Of a stretch of 64,000 nt of DNA, positions 33,335 through 58,750 are shown piece after piece; the stretch's first letter is position 1; the number at the start of each line of letters is the position of its first letter. Below the pieces are notes generated by a model. That model was not told the DNA's origin. It did no database searches and saw only the letters and a program-made list of their open reading frames with translations. The DNA comes from Candidatus Jettenia sp. AMX2 (GTDB taxonomy: Bacteria; Planctomycetota; Brocadiia; Brocadiales; Brocadiaceae). The DNA lies in contig CP129469.1 of NCBI GenBank assembly GCA_030583665.1, positions 2,843,043 through 2,907,042 of the forward strand. The letters are read 5' to 3'. The position numbers and the translations under genes are program-made.

Positions 33335-33340
33335 TCATAA

Positions 33341-33520
33341 AAAGAGCGGTAAGACCGCTGTGGGTTCCTCTGGTGTTCCCTTCCGTAGGTTGGCAAAGCC
33401 AGAGGGTACGCACCCACAGGGTACGCTCAAACAAACAAATCATACAGAGAAAATTGTTCATCTACCAATCGCGGTAGAAGGATCTCGGGGGCCGCCTGAA
33501 AAGGCGGTCGCTGTTTTTTT
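33341..33520 (+). ncRNA. Candidate structured noncoding RNA, about 180 nt, family unknown
   Basis: Between a promoter and a terminator on the plus strand lies a GC-rich, strongly self-complementary stretch. Stems seen: AGCGGT/ACCGCT at the 5' end, GTGGGT/ACCCAC enclosing CCTCTGG/CCAGAGG, then CTACC/GGTAG, and a final GGCCGCCT-GAAA-AGGCGGTC with GCTGTTTTTTT. The 5' AGCG...ACCGC can also pair with 3' GCGGTCGCT to close the whole molecule. No open frame with a ribosome-binding site fits. Size and closed ends recall 6S RNA, but I could not match the 6S bubble or any riboswitch. It lies antisense-oriented inside a defence-like island. Confidence 0.5.
33490..33520 (+). terminator. Intrinsic terminator of the candidate ncRNA
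   Basis: GGCCGCCT and AGGCGGTC form a GC-rich stem with a GAAA loop; a seven-T run at 33514-33520 follows four bases after the stem. The T-run overlaps the stop of the convergent gene at 33519. Confidence 0.8.
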
Positions 33521-51749: not shown

Positions 51750-52643
51750 CTAGTGTTTTACTGAATCTGTATGTGGTCGTAAATAAATAAACCAGAATAT
51801 TATGCCGATTAAAATAACTCCACCAATAAGATTTCCCAAGGTAACCGGAAATAGATTATTAACAAAAAATCCTTTCCATGTGAGCTGGGAAAGATCTAAT
51901 GATTTTCCTACTGCCTTTTCTGCCGTTGTAACGATATCCGGATGTTTTCTTAAAATTATGCCCGTTGGGATAAAATACATATTCGCCACGCAATGTTCAA
52001 AACCACTGGCAACGAAACCACCTATAGCGAACATAGTCGAAAGAACCTTATCTGCCACATTCCTGCTACTATAACACAACCATACATTAAGACATACCAA
52101 TGCATTACAAAGTGTGCCTCTTGCCAGGGCTTCTTTAAAAGTTAAATCAACCTTTTTATGAGCAATAAGTAGTGCCTTTGCGCCTGTCATAGACTGAAAA
52201 AATTCCCATTGATGTGCCAGATACATCCAATAGACCATTATGAGTCCACCCACAAAATTACCAAGATACACAATCGTCCAGATTCTGAGCAATTCGTAAG
52301 TTGTAATTTTTTTACTAAGATAACCCACGATATTTAAATTGTTACCGGTAAAAAGTTCTGAACCAGCAACCTCAACCAGTATTAATCCGAAAGAAAATAC
52401 AATACCAGTAATAAGGGAGGTAATTCCTACATGTAAGGTAGAGTCATTTGTCACAAAGGTGGCAAACTGAGCGCCCATAGCAACATAAATTCCAGCTAAA
52501 ACACTCAATACAAATGTTTGTTTAATGCTTAATCTTGCTCTCACCAGCGCTTTATTTTCAATTACAGAAGCAGTCTTCTGAGGTAGATATGCTGTATCGA
52601 TATTTGTAATTTGAATAGGTTTTGGAATATTATTCTCTTCCAT
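51750..52643 (-). CDS. FocA/NirC-type formate/nitrite channel, second copy
   Basis: A 297-residue membrane protein with six helices. It forms a pentameric channel for small monovalent anions such as formate, nitrite or hydrosulfide. Seen: LAGIYVAMGAQFATFV, GLILVEVAGSELFTGNNL, YLGNFVGGLIMVYW, LCNALVCLNVWLCY, and GFEHCVANMYFIPTGI with the conserved pore His. It follows the first copy by 14 bp. It has a longer polar N-terminus (about 45 residues) than E. coli FocA. Substrate cannot be set from sequence. The fluoride-riboswitch context upstream raises fluoride-related or general weak-acid anion export as one idea. Confidence 0.93.
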   Translation of the reverse strand: MEENNIPKPIQITNIDTAYLPQKTASVIENKALVRARLSIKQTFVLSVLAGIYVAMGAQFATFVTNDSTLHVGITSLITGIVFSFGLILVEVAGSELFTGNNLNIVGYLSKKITTYELLRIWTIVYLGNFVGGLIMVYWMYLAHQWEFFQSMTGAKALLIAHKKVDLTFKEALARGTLCNALVCLNVWLCYSSRNVADKVLSTMFAIGGFVASGFEHCVANMYFIPTGIILRKHPDIVTTAEKAVGKSLDLSQLTWKGFFVNNLFPVTLGNLIGGVILIGIIFWFIYLRPHTDSVKH

Positions 52644-52657
52644 CCTTTATTTCTCCT

Positions 52658-53560
52658 CTATTCTTTCTTTGAAGGGTGTAAATACACAAACCAATAAGCG
52701 CCTGCAATTAATGCAATGCCTCCGAATAAATTTCCAAGGACAACCGGAAACAGATTATCAATCAAAAATCCTTTGAAACAGGTGAGATTTGAAAGGTCTG
52801 GCGTTCCACCATGTATCATTTCAGCAGCAGCAAGTACTGCGCTATCTCCTTTTAGAGCAATTCCCATAGGGATAAGCCACATATTAACAACACAATGCTC
52901 GAATCCACAGGCCATAAGGCACGATACAGGCCATAGTAATGCCAGTATTTTATCGATAGTACTTCTTCCACAGTAGCACATCCAGACACCAAGACATAGT
53001 AAGGCGTTACCCATCACTCCCTGTATAAAGACAACACCTGGTGGTGTATTTACTTTATCATTGGCCATAAGGACTATTTTAGCGCCCAGCAGATGATTGT
53101 TCGTCATCCACAGATCAGAATTGTATATCAATACAACAATAGTTAATGCACCAACAAAATTACCAACGAACGCAATAATCAAATTCCTTGTAAGGGCCTG
53201 GCCTGTAATTTTCTTAGCCATAAAAGACATCACGACAAGACAATTTCCATTAAAGAGTTCGGCACCGGTAATTACAACTAAAACCATTGATAACGTGAAG
53301 GCTATACCACCAATAAGTTGATATAAACCAAAATTTGATGTTGCTGTATGCGTTACTACTATAAAGAGTTGCGTACCAAGTGCGATAAAGATGCCAGCAA
53401 GTATACTAAGGAAAAGCATCGTTAACGTATCAGGACTTGTCTTTGCAACACCCACCAGTGCTACTTTTTCAGACATTTCTGTTGGTCTATAAGTATCAAT
53501 TTCAATTACTGGTGATGCGGGATATTTTTGATCCTCCCCATTATTCAATATATCAGACAT
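52658..53560 (-). CDS. FocA/NirC-type formate/nitrite channel, first copy
   Basis: A 300-residue six-helix anion channel, paralogue of the gene 14 bp downstream. Seen: LAGIFIALGTQLFIVV, VITGAELFNGNCLVVMSF, FVGNFVGALTIVVLIY, GNALLCLGVWMCY, and GFEHCVVNMWLIPMGI with the pore His. A polar N-terminal extension of about 45 residues is present. It starts 25 bp after the antiporter gene, so all three form one operon. In anammox bacteria several FocA/NirC copies serve nitrite uptake; that is family knowledge and may or may not apply here. Confidence 0.93.
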   Translation of the reverse strand: MSDILNNGEDQKYPASPVIEIDTYRPTEMSEKVALVGVAKTSPDTLTMLFLSILAGIFIALGTQLFIVVTHTATSNFGLYQLIGGIAFTLSMVLVVITGAELFNGNCLVVMSFMAKKITGQALTRNLIIAFVGNFVGALTIVVLIYNSDLWMTNNHLLGAKIVLMANDKVNTPPGVVFIQGVMGNALLCLGVWMCYCGRSTIDKILALLWPVSCLMACGFEHCVVNMWLIPMGIALKGDSAVLAAAEMIHGGTPDLSNLTCFKGFLIDNLFPVVLGNLFGGIALIAGAYWFVYLHPSKKE

Positions 53561-53585
53561 AAATGCCTCCTTTTATCACAGGGAT

Positions 53586-55583
53586 TTATTTTTTAAGTTC
53601 TTCAAAAATCCCATTCTCTATTTCCAATAAATCCTCCTCTTCTACGGGCATAAACCATTTTTGTGCGATAAAGGTAGGAATAACAGCACTTGCAATAACA
53701 ACTCCGACAAGGATTGAATACTGCACTTGATTGATATATCCGGCGTTCAATCCAAAAACACTTGCAATAGTGCCAAAAGTAAGACCGGTACTCATGAGAA
53801 GCGTCGTGTACATGCTACCCTGGGGGATATATCTTTTAGCCAGGAAATATACACCGATAAATTTGGTGACTATTTTCACTGCAAAGAGAATCAGAAACAG
53901 TCCAAGAGCAGAGAGAATGAGAGGTAATGAAATCTTTAATCCTCCTACTACAAAAAATATTGGCGTGATAAATGCATATGCTACCGTCTTCAGCCGGTTG
54001 TGTACTTTTTTTGTTCCTGATGTTTCCGTAAAGTGTTTAGACATAAAAAGCCCCAGAGCAAAAGCAGGCAACACCGCATGTCCAGCCCCCAAGTCGGCAA
54101 AATATATAACGATAATTAATAGGAGAAAAAGATATTTTATTTCTGGTTCTATGACTTTATTTTTCAGTTTCGGATTATGAAAAACATAGTGGGAAAATTT
54201 TGTAGCGCCAAAAATAACAACAATCGAAATTATGATAAAAATTACCGTATAAAAAGTTGGTTTTACAAAGAGAATACTCAATACTAAGGCAGTTCCCATA
54301 TCAGTAATAAAAGTAGACGCCATGAGCAATTTACCGATATGGGTCCTGGATAGTCCCGTTTCAACTAATACCGAATAAACTACTGCTAATGATGTTGTTG
54401 ATAAAGCTGTACCGGCGATTAAAGACGCCTGCAATGACCAATGAGAAACATAATACGTATAAAGCGTTACTCCGGTAAATGGGGCTAAAAAAGAAAAGAA
54501 ACCTATTAAGAAGCTTTCTTTAAATTTTTCTTTCATAAGTGGTATATCAATTTCTGTTCCGGATAAGAAGGTTAAAATGATTCCTCCCAGGCCAGCTACA
54601 TGTATCATCCAATCCTCAGCACGTAATCCCAGATTCCCGGCTACAGCACCTAAAAGGATCTCTATGATAGCCACCGAAAAGCCGGTGTATAAGGAAATCA
54701 GGCTGGCAAGAAATATAATAGTACCTACAAACAAAGGTATTATATTTGCTTTTTCTAAGAGTTGCTTCAGGTTTAGATTTTGAAATAAAGTGTACGGAGT
54801 GGTTAGGGGGGTTACAGAAGAAGGAGTAACAGAACTTTCATTATGTACTATCTTTCCGGTAGAATCGTTGAATCTGTTTTTATAGAGCACTTCGCCCTTC
54901 TTTGCATCAACATACACTAACCAGATTTTATCAACAGGATCTTCTTGTGAAAAAAGTATCTTCCATGCTAACATTTGGTTATTGCCTCTGGGAAGAATTA
55001 CCAGTTCTGACACTGTTTTTTGAGTCAATGGCAAATTAAGAGCCAAAGCCTTTTTTGCCCTCCGAACTGCATCATTTTTTTCTATTGACGGTTTTGTATT
55101 AATCTTAACATTGTGGATGCTGCGATTTCTTCTTAGAGAGAAGATATAATTTTTCTCTGATACACATACGGAGATATTGGCACCGATAATTGGCATCCCC
55201 TTATAATATTGCTGAAATACAATCCGTTTGCCGAATGGCGCTTCTATGACCTCTCTTACCTGAAAATTTTCCAAGTCTGAACTCAGGCCAAAAAGCCCGT
55301 GATATAACGACAAAAACTCTTTTGCAGCATCCTGCGGCTTCCCCTGAAACACCTTACTCCTCGCACCAAATACCCTTATTGCTGTCCCTGTTTCCTTATC
55401 CCATACAACCCTCCAATTGGGATTATCCTCTGTCTTTAACTTTACCAGGAAAGATTCCGGTAAATCCTGTCCACTTGCTAAAGACAGGCAAAGGATTATC
55501 AGAATGCCTAAAGACAGAATGAATGTATTAAAGATATTCCAAACTTTAACTTTCTTTCCTACAAATTGCGTTAATAAAAACAT
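53586..55583 (-). CDS. CPA2-type cation/proton antiporter fused to a FTP/PepSY peptidase-propeptide-like domain
   Basis: A 665-residue fusion. Residues about 14-37 are a membrane or signal helix. About 40-240 look like the FTP and PepSY domains of M4-metallopeptidase propeptides (FQGKPQDAAKEFLSLYHGLFGLSSDLENFQVREV, KRIVFQQYYKGMPIIGANIS, DKIWLVYVDAKKGEVLYKN), with no peptidase following. From about 270 a KefB/NhaS-like CPA2 antiporter follows (GLRAEDWMIHVAGLGGIILTFLSGTEID, ALSTTSLAVVYSVL, GAGHAVLPAFALGLFMSK, TPIFFVVGGLKISLP). There is no C-terminal RCK domain. The FTP part should be on the outer side. It lies 193 bp after the truncated dynamin-like gene and 25 bp before focA. CPA2 antiporters are among genes known under fluoride-riboswitch control. 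Confidence 0.85.
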   Translation of the reverse strand: MFLLTQFVGKKVKVWNIFNTFILSLGILIILCLSLASGQDLPESFLVKLKTEDNPNWRVVWDKETGTAIRVFGARSKVFQGKPQDAAKEFLSLYHGLFGLSSDLENFQVREVIEAPFGKRIVFQQYYKGMPIIGANISVCVSEKNYIFSLRRNRSIHNVKINTKPSIEKNDAVRRAKKALALNLPLTQKTVSELVILPRGNNQMLAWKILFSQEDPVDKIWLVYVDAKKGEVLYKNRFNDSTGKIVHNESSVTPSSVTPLTTPYTLFQNLNLKQLLEKANIIPLFVGTIIFLASLISLYTGFSVAIIEILLGAVAGNLGLRAEDWMIHVAGLGGIILTFLSGTEIDIPLMKEKFKESFLIGFFSFLAPFTGVTLYTYYVSHWSLQASLIAGTALSTTSLAVVYSVLVETGLSRTHIGKLLMASTFITDMGTALVLSILFVKPTFYTVIFIIISIVVIFGATKFSHYVFHNPKLKNKVIEPEIKYLFLLLIIVIYFADLGAGHAVLPAFALGLFMSKHFTETSGTKKVHNRLKTVAYAFITPIFFVVGGLKISLPLILSALGLFLILFAVKIVTKFIGVYFLAKRYIPQGSMYTTLLMSTGLTFGTIASVFGLNAGYINQVQYSILVGVVIASAVIPTFIAQKWFMPVEEEDLLEIENGIFEELKK

Positions 55584-55776: not shown

Positions 55777-56364
55777 TTATATATTTTTGAGTTCTGTAAT
55801 GGGAGCCATCGTACCCGATTGATTTTTGTGAAATTTTAAGTTGACCCGCAGTTCATCACGATTTATTGTAAGCAGGATGATCTCCTCGGTTAATTCTTGT
55901 GAAATTTCAAGCTGACCCATAGATATTTCAAAAATTATTTCCGTTGCTGTTTTAAACTCATAAAAGATATCGTTAGATTGTTTTAAGAAGCGGTGAATAG
56001 TTTCCTTGATACTGTTCGAAATTATTTTCTCCTCGTTTCTTCTGAATCCGGCGAATACATTGATAATTTCATTGTCGATAACCTTTTGCATTTTTCTTCT
56101 AAAATCCTTTAGATTAGTAACCGGGTCTTTTTCATAAATATTAAAGAGGAGATGCTTTATCCTTTGTATTTCTTCGAAATTTTTTAATGTTTCCTCCGCA
56201 TGTACACATACTATATCTAATTCGTTCTTGAGAATAGCCAAACTATCTCCTATATCTTGTTTTAGGTGTGTAGCAAGATGACAGAAGGTATCTATTTTAT
56301 TCTCCAGTTCTTTTACAGAAACTTTTGATATTTTTGTCATAATAATACCAACAATCTCTTCCAT
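55777..56364 (-). CDS. Dynamin-stalk-like protein lacking a GTPase domain
   Basis: A 195-residue helical protein, homologous by eye to the middle (about 285-450) of the dynamin-like GTPase encoded upstream: VSVKELENKIDTFCHLATHL KQD against EEDLEKKINTFHKLVANLKQD, NSIKETIHRFLKQSNDIFYEFKTATEIIFE against GSIQETFRRFTKRSNDILHEFKTAAEILFE. G1-G4 motifs are absent. The start is ATG 56364 with GGGAGGAATAAAC; a frame extension to 56397 is ignored. Its leader carries two fluoride-riboswitch aptamers. It could bind the full GTPase and modulate its assembly, or be a decaying duplicate; its own ribosome-binding site and regulation favour function. Confidence 0.75.
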   Translation of the reverse strand: MEEIVGIIMTKISKVSVKELENKIDTFCHLATHLKQDIGDSLAILKNELDIVCVHAEETLKNFEEIQRIKHLLFNIYEKDPVTNLKDFRRKMQKVIDNEIINVFAGFRRNEEKIISNSIKETIHRFLKQSNDIFYEFKTATEIIFEISMGQLEISQELTEEIILLTINRDELRVNLKFHKNQSGTMAPITELKNI

Positions 56365-56371
56365 GTTTATT

Positions 56372-56471
56372 CCTCCCGTAAATTTAACCGAAAACATTGT
56401 TCTGCGGTTTATAATGCTAATTTACATAGGAGTTATCAGCTATCATTAGCAGTTAGGCGAACTCCATCGCC
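56372..56471 (-). promoter_or_regulatory. Fluoride riboswitch, second of tandem pair, translational type
   Basis: The minus-strand aptamer (56471 to 56425) reads GGCGATGGAGTTCGCC, then a GCTAATGATAGC stem-loop, then TGATAACTCCTATG, matching the crcB motif. No U-run terminator follows. Instead the 3' strand CTCC plus GTAAATT (56419-56425) can pair with AATTTAC and the GGAGG ribosome-binding site at 56372-56384. Without fluoride this would hide the start of the dynamin-stalk-like gene. Confidence 0.8.
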
Positions 56472-56518
56472 AAAATAGACAGAGAGATTAAATAGGTGAA
56501 ATACTTCGATAGGAAGGA

Positions 56519-56597
56519 TAAAAAAACTCCTATTGAAGAAATTCTTCAACAGGAGTTATCAGCTACAGTGGTAGCAACCGGGGTGAACTCCATCACC
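56519..56597 (-). promoter_or_regulatory. Fluoride riboswitch, first of tandem pair, with intrinsic terminator
   Basis: Aptamer 56597 to 56551: GGTGATGGAGTTCACC, a GCTACCACTGTAGC stem-loop and TGATAACTCCTG, as in the crcB motif. Its 3' ACTCC also opens a terminator hairpin, AACTCCTGTTGAAG/CTTCAATAGGAGTT, with TTTTTTT. Fluoride binding should keep ACTCC in the aptamer and allow read-through. Confidence 0.9.
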
Positions 56598-56603
56598 TGA
56601 CAT

Positions 56604-56631
56604 ATTGTATTTATCTATTAAGAAACTTCAA
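56604..56631 (-). promoter_or_regulatory. Promoter of the tandem-riboswitch transcript
   Basis: On the minus strand TTGAAG (56631-56626), a 16-bp spacer, TACAAT (56609-56604). The start is expected at about 56597, exactly the first base of the aptamer. Confidence 0.65.
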
Positions 56632-56752: not shown

Positions 56753-58555
56753 TTATAACTTAACCATTTTGCAATGTTCATTTTCTCTATCGATCATATG
56801 AATAGTATTTCCGATATTTTCAAGTTTTTCCCTGTTTTCTTCGAGGATTTTAGCCTTACCTGTTAATAATGCAAGCTCAATACGTACCGATTCACTTCCT
56901 GCCTTTCTTCTTTCCTGACCTTTTTGGATGGCCTGTTCTATCTGTTCAATAAGGTCATTGCCGAGGTCCTTCAATTGTTTGGAGTAATGATTAATGGTTT
57001 TATGAATCCTTGCTGACAGGTCAGAGCGTACCCTGCCACAATTCCTGCTTACTTCGGAAGATACCCGCTCCATCATCTCGTGTAAGACCATTTTTCTACT
57101 TACTGATTTAGGCAAAATGGTACGCAGAATGGATCTAACCTCTTCTTCAGTTGGGGCTGTGTATTCCTGTACCATATAATAAAAACTATTGTCCCTGGTT
57201 AACTCCACAGAGAATTCAAATTGATCCATGGGTACCTCAAAGAGTATCTCTGCAGCCGTCTTGAACTCATGGAGGATGTCGTTAGAACGTTTTGTAAAAC
57301 GACGAAAGGTTTCCTGGATGCTCCCTGAGATGACACCCTCGATATCTTTTCTAAATACATCAAATCCCTTAACAATCTCCTCCTTGATAACCTGTTGCAT
57401 TCCGTCTCTTAATGCTGTTGGATGCAAATTCTGGTTTTTTTCAAAAAAATCCAGCAGACACTTTTTTATCCTGGGTACTTCTTTTTCCTCAAGAACCTTT
57501 AACATCTCTTCGGCCTTGAGACATAATTTGTCCGATTCGCCCTTCAGCAGATAGGTAATATCCTCTCTGTCCTGTTTCAGGTTTGCAACAAGCTTATGAA
57601 AGGTATTGATCTTTTTTTCCAGATCCTCTTCAGATGCCTCCAGTGTTTTTTTCTCAATAGCTATTTGTGATAGTATTTGGGATATGATCCGTTTTACCTT
57701 GGATATTGCAGTATTTAGAATAATCCTGCCCTTTTCCGAAGAGAGAAAACGGCCTAATGCATCCTCAAGGTTCGGAAGACCGCTTCGTAAAAGTTGAGTA
57801 TCATTATCTACCATTTTTGCTTTCAGCGCTTCTCTTGCTGAGACAGGCAATATCTCATGAACGGTAAATCCCATTTCTTCAAGAACCTGTTTGTTAAAGG
57901 CAACGATCTCTTCGATCTCTTCAGGAGATAGATAATCAATCTTGTTCAGAACAAAAAATATCTTTTGGGTAGAATTCTTAATCGTGTCGAGAAGTTCTTT
58001 TTCCACCTGTGAAATAGGGACATCCGCACTCATAAGGAACAATGCTGCATCCAGATGATCTAAAAACTCATACGTTGTTTCTGTGTTATGGAGAAAAGTT
58101 GATCCCACACCGGGTGTGTCTACCAGCAGCATCCCCTGCTCAAGAAAAGGCGACGGGTACTCAATACGTGCACACCGTACGCCGCGTATGTTTTTAGGAT
58201 TTCCTCTTTCTGTTATATAATCGGAAAGTTCTTCTATATGAATCTTTTTTTTACTGCTATCTTCCATAAAGATAGAACACCCAATCTCCGTACCAAACAT
58301 TAAGATCGTTACAATGGACGTTAAAGGTACAACAGAAGAAGGGAGGATTTCCTTACCGATCAGGCTGTTAATAAGGGTCGTTTTCCCCCTTTTAAACTGA
58401 CCAAGAATCACCAGGTTAAAACAATTGGATATCAACTGCTCCTTAATGGCAAATAGCCAGTTCCCCGTTTCCACAGTTTCGCCTTTTGTTAAAATCTCTG
58501 TATTTTCAATAACATTCAGTATTTCTGTTTTCCGTTTTCTGAATTCTTCCAGCAT
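56753..58555 (-). CDS. Bacterial dynamin-like GTPase under fluoride-riboswitch control
   Basis: A 600-residue dynamin-family protein that likely remodels or repairs membranes. G motifs: G1 LGQFKRGKTTLINSLIG (52-59), a conserved Thr in VPLTSIVT (G2), G3 LVDTPGVGS (146-149), G4 LNKIDYL (204-207). The stalk is long and helical (about 285-600) with coiled-coil stretches. No classic transmembrane paddle is obvious. ATG 58555 follows two successive terminators and a fluoride aptamer, so expression should rise with fluoride. No other gene lies in this transcript before the next riboswitch. A dynamin could counter membrane damage or help compartment homeostasis; this role in fluoride stress is inference. 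Confidence 0.92.
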   Translation of the reverse strand: MLEEFRKRKTEILNVIENTEILTKGETVETGNWLFAIKEQLISNCFNLVILGQFKRGKTTLINSLIGKEILPSSVVPLTSIVTILMFGTEIGCSIFMEDSSKKKIHIEELSDYITERGNPKNIRGVRCARIEYPSPFLEQGMLLVDTPGVGSTFLHNTETTYEFLDHLDAALFLMSADVPISQVEKELLDTIKNSTQKIFFVLNKIDYLSPEEIEEIVAFNKQVLEEMGFTVHEILPVSAREALKAKMVDNDTQLLRSGLPNLEDALGRFLSSEKGRIILNTAISKVKRIISQILSQIAIEKKTLEASEEDLEKKINTFHKLVANLKQDREDITYLLKGESDKLCLKAEEMLKVLEEKEVPRIKKCLLDFFEKNQNLHPTALRDGMQQVIKEEIVKGFDVFRKDIEGVISGSIQETFRRFTKRSNDILHEFKTAAEILFEVPMDQFEFSVELTRDNSFYYMVQEYTAPTEEEVRSILRTILPKSVSRKMVLHEMMERVSSEVSRNCGRVRSDLSARIHKTINHYSKQLKDLGNDLIEQIEQAIQKGQERRKAGSESVRIELALLTGKAKILEENREKLENIGNTIHMIDRENEHCKMVKL

Positions 58556-58575: not shown

Positions 58576-58620
58576 AAAATAAAAACCCCCGGTCAAAACA
58601 GTATGTTATGACAGGGGGTC
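58576..58620 (-). terminator. Second terminator between riboswitch and dynamin-like gene
   Basis: On the minus strand CCCCC-T-GTCA pairs with TGAC-C-GGGGG (one central mismatch), followed by TTTTTATTTT. It sits just after the riboswitch's own terminator and 20 bp before the start codon. Confidence 0.7.
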
Positions 58621-58625
58621 TTCAA

Positions 58626-58703
58626 TAAAAAAACTCCTGTCGAAGAAAACCTTCAACAGGAGTTATCAGCTATGTGATAGCAATTGAGGTGAACTCCATC
58701 ACC
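58626..58703 (-). promoter_or_regulatory. Fluoride riboswitch upstream of the dynamin-like gene
   Basis: Aptamer 58703 to 58658: GGTGATGGAGTTCACC, a GCTATCACATAGC stem-loop, TGATAACTCCTG. The ACTCC strand begins the terminator AACTCCTGTTGAAGG/CTTCGACAGGAGTT with TTTTTTT. This is the usual ON-switch layout of the crcB motif. Confidence 0.92.
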
Positions 58704-58722: not shown

Positions 58723-58750
58723 ATTATAATATAATTCAACTTTTTGTCAA
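58723..58750 (-). promoter_or_regulatory. Consensus promoter of the riboswitch-dynamin transcript
   Basis: On the minus strand TTGACA (58750-58745), a 16-bp spacer and TATAAT (58728-58723), both hexamers exact. It lies directly after the smc stop codon. The start, near 58716, is about 13 nt before the aptamer. Confidence 0.88.

Follow-up and report, generated by a model that had tools for sequence, protein, structure and literature searches.

A probable tandem fluoride riboswitch with two output mechanisms in Candidatus Jettenia sp. AMX2, and stacked hairpins in the fluoride leaders of related Brocadiaceae

RESULTS

The window, the whole stretch of 64,000 nucleotides analyzed here, comes from an anammox planctomycete and carries on its minus strand a presumed operon that begins with the gene for a dynamin-like GTPase (Table 1). 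About 150 bases past this gene starts a leader with two fluoride aptamers, which we call B and C, followed by the genes for a paralogue of the GTPase C-terminal region, an antiporter, and two formate/nitrite (FNT) transporters. Both aptamers, proposed as a tandem in a preliminary description of the sequence, were matched on the minus strand by the Rfam covariance model RF01734 (33.9 and 50.5 bits, respectively). The gathering score of this model is 34 bits; aptamer C lies well above it and aptamer B 0.1 bits under it. A further aptamer, A, stands ahead of the GTPase gene behind a perfect promoter. The pseudoknot between GGAGT in the P1 loop and ACTCC is an exact match in A, B, and C.

Table 1. 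Features of the fluoride aptamer locus (window positions)
Feature	Position	Strand	Details
Promoter of leader A	58723..58750	-	TTGACA-16-TATAAT; perfect, 12/12 matches
Fluoride aptamer A	58712-58650	-	RF01734, 48.0 bits, over gathering score; missed by the preliminary description
Terminator T1 of A	58632..58664	-	
Second terminator T2 of A	58581..58618	-	GTPase start region directly after
Dynamin-like GTPase, first gene of presumed operon	56753..58555	-	600 aa; Pfam Dynamin_N, E 7.6e-27
Weak promoter-like site 5' of aptamer B	56604..56631	-	TTGAAG-16-TACAAT; 9/12 matches
Fluoride aptamer B	56606-56543	-	RF01734, 33.9 bits, E 6.9e-7; P1 56597-56582; pseudoknot strand ACTCC 56556-56552
Intrinsic terminator T1 of B	56557-56525	-	Terminator scan; 15 bp, loop 3, then TTTTTTT; U tract to 56520
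Antiterminator arm CCTATCGAAG	56513-56504	-	Pairs with T1 3' arm CTTCAATAGG
Fluoride aptamer C	56480-56420	-	RF01734, 50.5 bits, E 4.9e-11; P1 56471-56456; pseudoknot strand ACTCC 56433-56429
Anti-SD strand CTCCTATGTAAATT	56432-56419	-	CTCCT-AT-GTAAATT; overlaps C pseudoknot strand
Hairpin AACCG..CGGTT inside SD-occluding helix	56386..56409	-	MFE fold
SD-side strand AATTTACGGGAG	56384-56373	-	AATTTAC-GGGAG; holds most of SD GGGAGG
SD GGGAGG	56377-56372	-	ATG of regulated gene at 56364
Regulated gene: paralogue of GTPase C-terminal region	55777..56364	-	195 aa, no G domain; 45-47% identity to the 600-aa GTPase
CPA2-type Na+/H+ antiporter with PepSY and two FNT transporters, downstream genes	51750..55583	-	Pfam, NCBIfam

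A terminator scan found no minus-strand terminator between the GTPase gene and aptamer B. The promoter-like site before B was not above chance, since the promoter scan returned 9 sites where 8.5 were expected. Most likely, the B-C leader lies inside an operon already gated by A; in the simplest reading, all genes are under A, and the later ones also under B and C. As the leader stands downstream of fluoride switch A with its perfect promoter, the paralogue gene is probably behind three gates. Transcripts would mostly enter from the promoter of A through the GTPase gene and meet these gates in series.

The order aptamer-GTPase-aptamer-paralogue-FNT recurs in relatives, which marks the paralogue gene as conserved. 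Its orthologues (256-294 aa) follow fluoride aptamers there, and the copy in the window is shorter. These orthologues led us to reject the view of the paralogue as a broken gene. Elsewhere in the window, a DUF3800-V RNA (RF02964, 62.1 bits) was found at 33338-33433 on the plus strand.

The preliminary description had the first aptamer end in a strong intrinsic terminator, and the terminator scan bears this out for B. The 5' arm of T1 overlaps the pseudoknot strand of B, so that ACTCC runs into the terminator. Fluoride binding was modeled by making both pseudoknot strands unavailable, a crude treatment that ignores kinetics and tertiary energy. T1 formed fully in the unconstrained fold, and its lower stem was gone once the pseudoknot strands were blocked. 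Downstream of T1, CCTATCGAAG is complementary to CTTCAATAGG beyond what shuffles give (P 0.01 for energy, 0.02 for length). The antiterminator helix reached a pairing probability of 0.82 with B blocked (bound) and 0.00 without the block. The spacer between B and C also carries TTTCACCT (56494-56501, minus strand), a complement of the 5' strand of P1 in B. It competes with this P1 in one fold, which may be by chance.

Aptamer B retains P1, P3, the two pseudoknot strands, and the GATGG..CTGAT core, and all core positions outside J1/3 are likewise intact. In J1/3, B reads CCGG, whereas each of the 42 other aptamers in the comparison, A and C among them, has an adenine. In the Bacillus cereus fluoride switch, two J1/3 adenines are protected upon fluoride binding (PMC10687018). 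Without the adenine common to the other aptamers, the affinity of B is uncertain, and judged from its sequence B may bind fluoride weakly. Over 80 nt, leader B shares 88% identity with leader A, a similarity not seen for C; B therefore probably arose as a copy of the switch of A placed ahead of C.

For aptamer C, the terminator scan found no terminator-like site 3' of it on the minus strand. As previously proposed, the second aptamer has a CTCC..GTAAATT strand that pairs with the Shine-Dalgarno (SD) strand of the next gene. This duplex is predicted at -11.9 kcal/mol, compared with a mean of -6.5 in dinucleotide shuffles (P 0.0105). When C was folded alone, the ribosome-binding site did enter a helix, and SD pairing fell from 0.64 in the unbound form to 0.18 with the pseudoknot strands blocked. 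In the whole leader, it fell from 0.89 to 0.44, indicating that the SD is freed only in part. An SD-occluding geometry made of different sequences was also found after the fluoride aptamers of two relatives (L031/L047, P 0.017; L046, P 0.011), and in L046 the constraint released the SD only weakly (0.77 to 0.62). Pairing tests with P values of about 0.01, as here, are of moderate weight.

We searched 59 relatives and 294 genomes of the phylum for fluoride aptamers. The spacing of B and C is about 123 bases, and no other aptamer pair as close was present among the pairs listed from these genomes; the next closest listed pairs, in G006, G018, and G023, are about 400-490 bases apart with a small gene between them. 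In the sister species Ca. Loosdrechtia aerotolerans, only A is present at the corresponding locus, and this species was the only one of the named genomes with a match in the GTPase scan. Plasmid records gave only short, chance-like matches.

We also compared the fluoride leaders of relatives. The T1-type terminator form recurs in most Brocadiaceae fluoride leaders. A second terminator, T2, comes after T1 in 34 Brocadiaceae leaders, about 16 of which have an SD hairpin as well. The arms of these hairpins were named a and b (T1), c and d (T2), and e and f (SD hairpin). Neighboring arms are cross-complementary, for example, in L048 at 4824, L037 at 6389, and L043 at 5941 (among leaders L007-L049). 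In many relatives, the SD hairpin is followed by a conserved 66-aa protein (MEKIIGIKDLQDAGLLG...; for example, L048 5002-5202 and L043 6120-6320). By eye, the leaders at 22 loci from other Planctomycetota looked like ordinary single platforms, and within this sample only Brocadiaceae seemed to have the T1-T2 pattern.

Arm b was complementary to c in every leader computed, with a duplex mean of -16.5 compared with about -4 to -9 for shuffled c. Pairing of b with c of the same leader exceeded re-dealt pairing with P 0.002, a value uncorrected for relatedness. On the alignment, 96.2% of b:c positions were paired, four pairs had changed on both sides, and the covariation score was 0.176, compared with ≤0.087 when the arms were slid. 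Arms a and d served as a control, since they would be expected to match the pairing of b:c if T2 had arisen simply by copying T1. In the inner four pairs, Watson-Crick pairing was 86% for b:c, 52% for a:d, and 46% for c:d, which is T2 itself. In the alignment, the T2 5' arm of L014_1550 is altered to match b, and T2 is thereby weaker.

For the next step, 83% of d:e positions were paired, compared with ≤65% when slid, and covariation of d:e was not above that of shuffles. A GT bulging from the SD hairpin, which fits d, was kept in 13 of 16 cases, and in L027 and L028 an insertion is common to d and e. The d:e evidence, which consists of complementarity, the GT bulge, and this insertion, is weaker than that for b:c. 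In equilibrium folding, blocking the aptamer strand did not keep T2 from winning (mean P 0.95), and equilibrium folding alone does not predict antitermination at T2. The b:c helix was complete (P 1.0) before d was transcribed, and for the passage from b:c to T2 a median barrier of 10.4 kcal/mol was computed. Within the window, both terminators are present in leader A, where b:c is weaker (-11.0, P 0.01). Leader B has kept a c-like arm, the antiterminator arm, and the T2 3' arm is absent.

Finally, a search for CrcB/Fluc (PF02537) gave no match in 20 Brocadiaceae genomes, including that of the window, and a search of the latter for CLC gave no match over the cut-off. Within the order, CrcB was present in genomes from families other than Brocadiaceae, and 10 of 14 control genomes were positive. 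In a genome from another family of the order (L054, 58-4055), an antiporter gene lies downstream of a fluoride aptamer, and a second, divergent aptamer stands ahead of a dynamin-like GTPase gene.

DISCUSSION

The B-C leader holds two aptamers of one ligand class, each with its own platform by sequence, and sequence and folding together mark the first platform as a transcription terminator and the second as SD access. These sequence elements, their significance, and the constrained folds lead us to read B-C as a bi-mechanism tandem fluoride riboswitch that is ON with fluoride, with a probability of about 0.7. We infer that both aptamers bind fluoride and that they act jointly. In the absence of fluoride, the ACTCC strand of B would build T1, and most transcripts would end at about 56520; in transcripts that pass T1, the ACTCC strand of C would pair with the SD region and block translation. 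In its presence, each ACTCC strand would be locked in the pseudoknot of its own aptamer. T1 would then lose its base and CCTATCGAAG would take the T1 3' arm, so that transcription goes on, and C would be unable to cover the SD, so that the paralogue gene is translated. This mechanism is plausible in that it fits most of the computations made. Gating first of transcription and then of translation had already been suggested in the preliminary description; folding with and without the aptamers and the leaders of relatives agree with that suggestion, whose picture was incomplete in that the antiterminator arm of B and the upstream aptamer A were missed. The steeper and less leaky response that it expected of two gates in series is a possible consequence.

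Alternatively, only C is a working sensor, and B is a recent copy of leader A that does not bind fluoride tightly and acts as a near-constitutive attenuator or is decaying. The adenine missing from J1/3, which is kept in 42 of 42 other aptamers and falls in a joining region whose adenines fluoride binding protects in B. cereus, would fit this alternative, as would the score of 33.9 bits and the 88% identity to A. We nevertheless consider it unlikely, since P1, P3, the pseudoknot strands, and the GATGG..CTGAT core of B are intact, and so are T1 and the antiterminator arm, two mutually exclusive structures that decay would not maintain. It is far less probable still that B and C are independent and lie on different transcripts because of a promoter or processing site between them. 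The promoter scan, which covered this interval, gave no minus-strand site. A weak 8/12 hexamer pair, TTCACC-17-TATTTT, can be read by eye in the spacer, but it is below the threshold of the scan, and a start there would cut off part of P1 of C.

If the tandem reading of B-C is true, this leader would be the first tandem in a riboswitch class for which a dedicated survey reported none; that survey, from 2022, placed fluoride among the classes not found in tandem and described bi-mechanism tandem switches for SAM classes (PMC9481103). The arrangement thus appears to be new for the fluoride class, although the kind of tandem is already known. The SAM-II/SAM-V and SAM-II/SAM-II bi-mechanism tandems (PMC9481103) are OFF for SAM, whereas B-C would be ON for fluoride. 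Like the pseudo-cooperative TPP and AdoCbl tandems, B-C has two complete switches for the same ligand in series; those tandems use one mechanism in both, whereas B-C would use termination first and translation second. The B. cereus crcB switch (RF01734) has the same aptamer and the same antitermination logic through the pseudoknot strand; by contrast, the B-C leader combines two aptamers whose outputs differ, and its target is the operon of the GTPase paralogue and FNT transporters instead of crcB. Our literature search found no paper that links fluoride riboswitches to dynamin or describes them in anammox bacteria. If true, B-C also joins two output levels for a toxic ion.

At this locus, related species seem to achieve with stacked hairpins what B-C would do with two aptamers. 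The cross-complementarity of neighboring arms suggests a domino of strand exchanges, in which fluoride would free b, b would capture c, and d would be set free to capture e, exposing the SD. One Brocadiaceae fluoride aptamer would then drive the mutually exclusive hairpins T1, T2, and, in many leaders, the SD hairpin, a proposal we make tentatively and rate a little short of an even chance. Because T2 wins at equilibrium, the domino needs kinetic control. If it is true, a single binding event controls transcription twice and translation once. An opposing account of these leaders, which leaves the B-C tandem untouched, takes T2 and the SD hairpin as by-products of hairpin duplication, the second terminators being constitutive and the cross-pairing without a role. 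The likeness of all arms and the predominance of T2 at equilibrium make it a possible account, though one we rate somewhat below even. Duplication or gene conversion predicts that a:d equals b:c, which is at odds with the inner pairing observed. Also, b:c covaries, L014_1550 has changed its T2 5' arm to fit b at the expense of T2, and b:c is completed before the T2 3' arm is made, with the median barrier given above.

By comparison with these leaders, a complete second aptamer seems to have taken the place of T2 and the SD hairpin in the B-C leader. The relatives would thus provide a natural series for the wiring of one sensor to several outputs, through stacked hairpins or a second aptamer. 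The leaders also point to an unusual fluoride regulon in Brocadiaceae, made up of the GTPase, its paralogue, the antiporter, and the FNT channels. Given that CrcB/Fluc was not found in the 20 Brocadiaceae genomes, any of these proteins is a candidate fluoride resistance factor of anammox bacteria.
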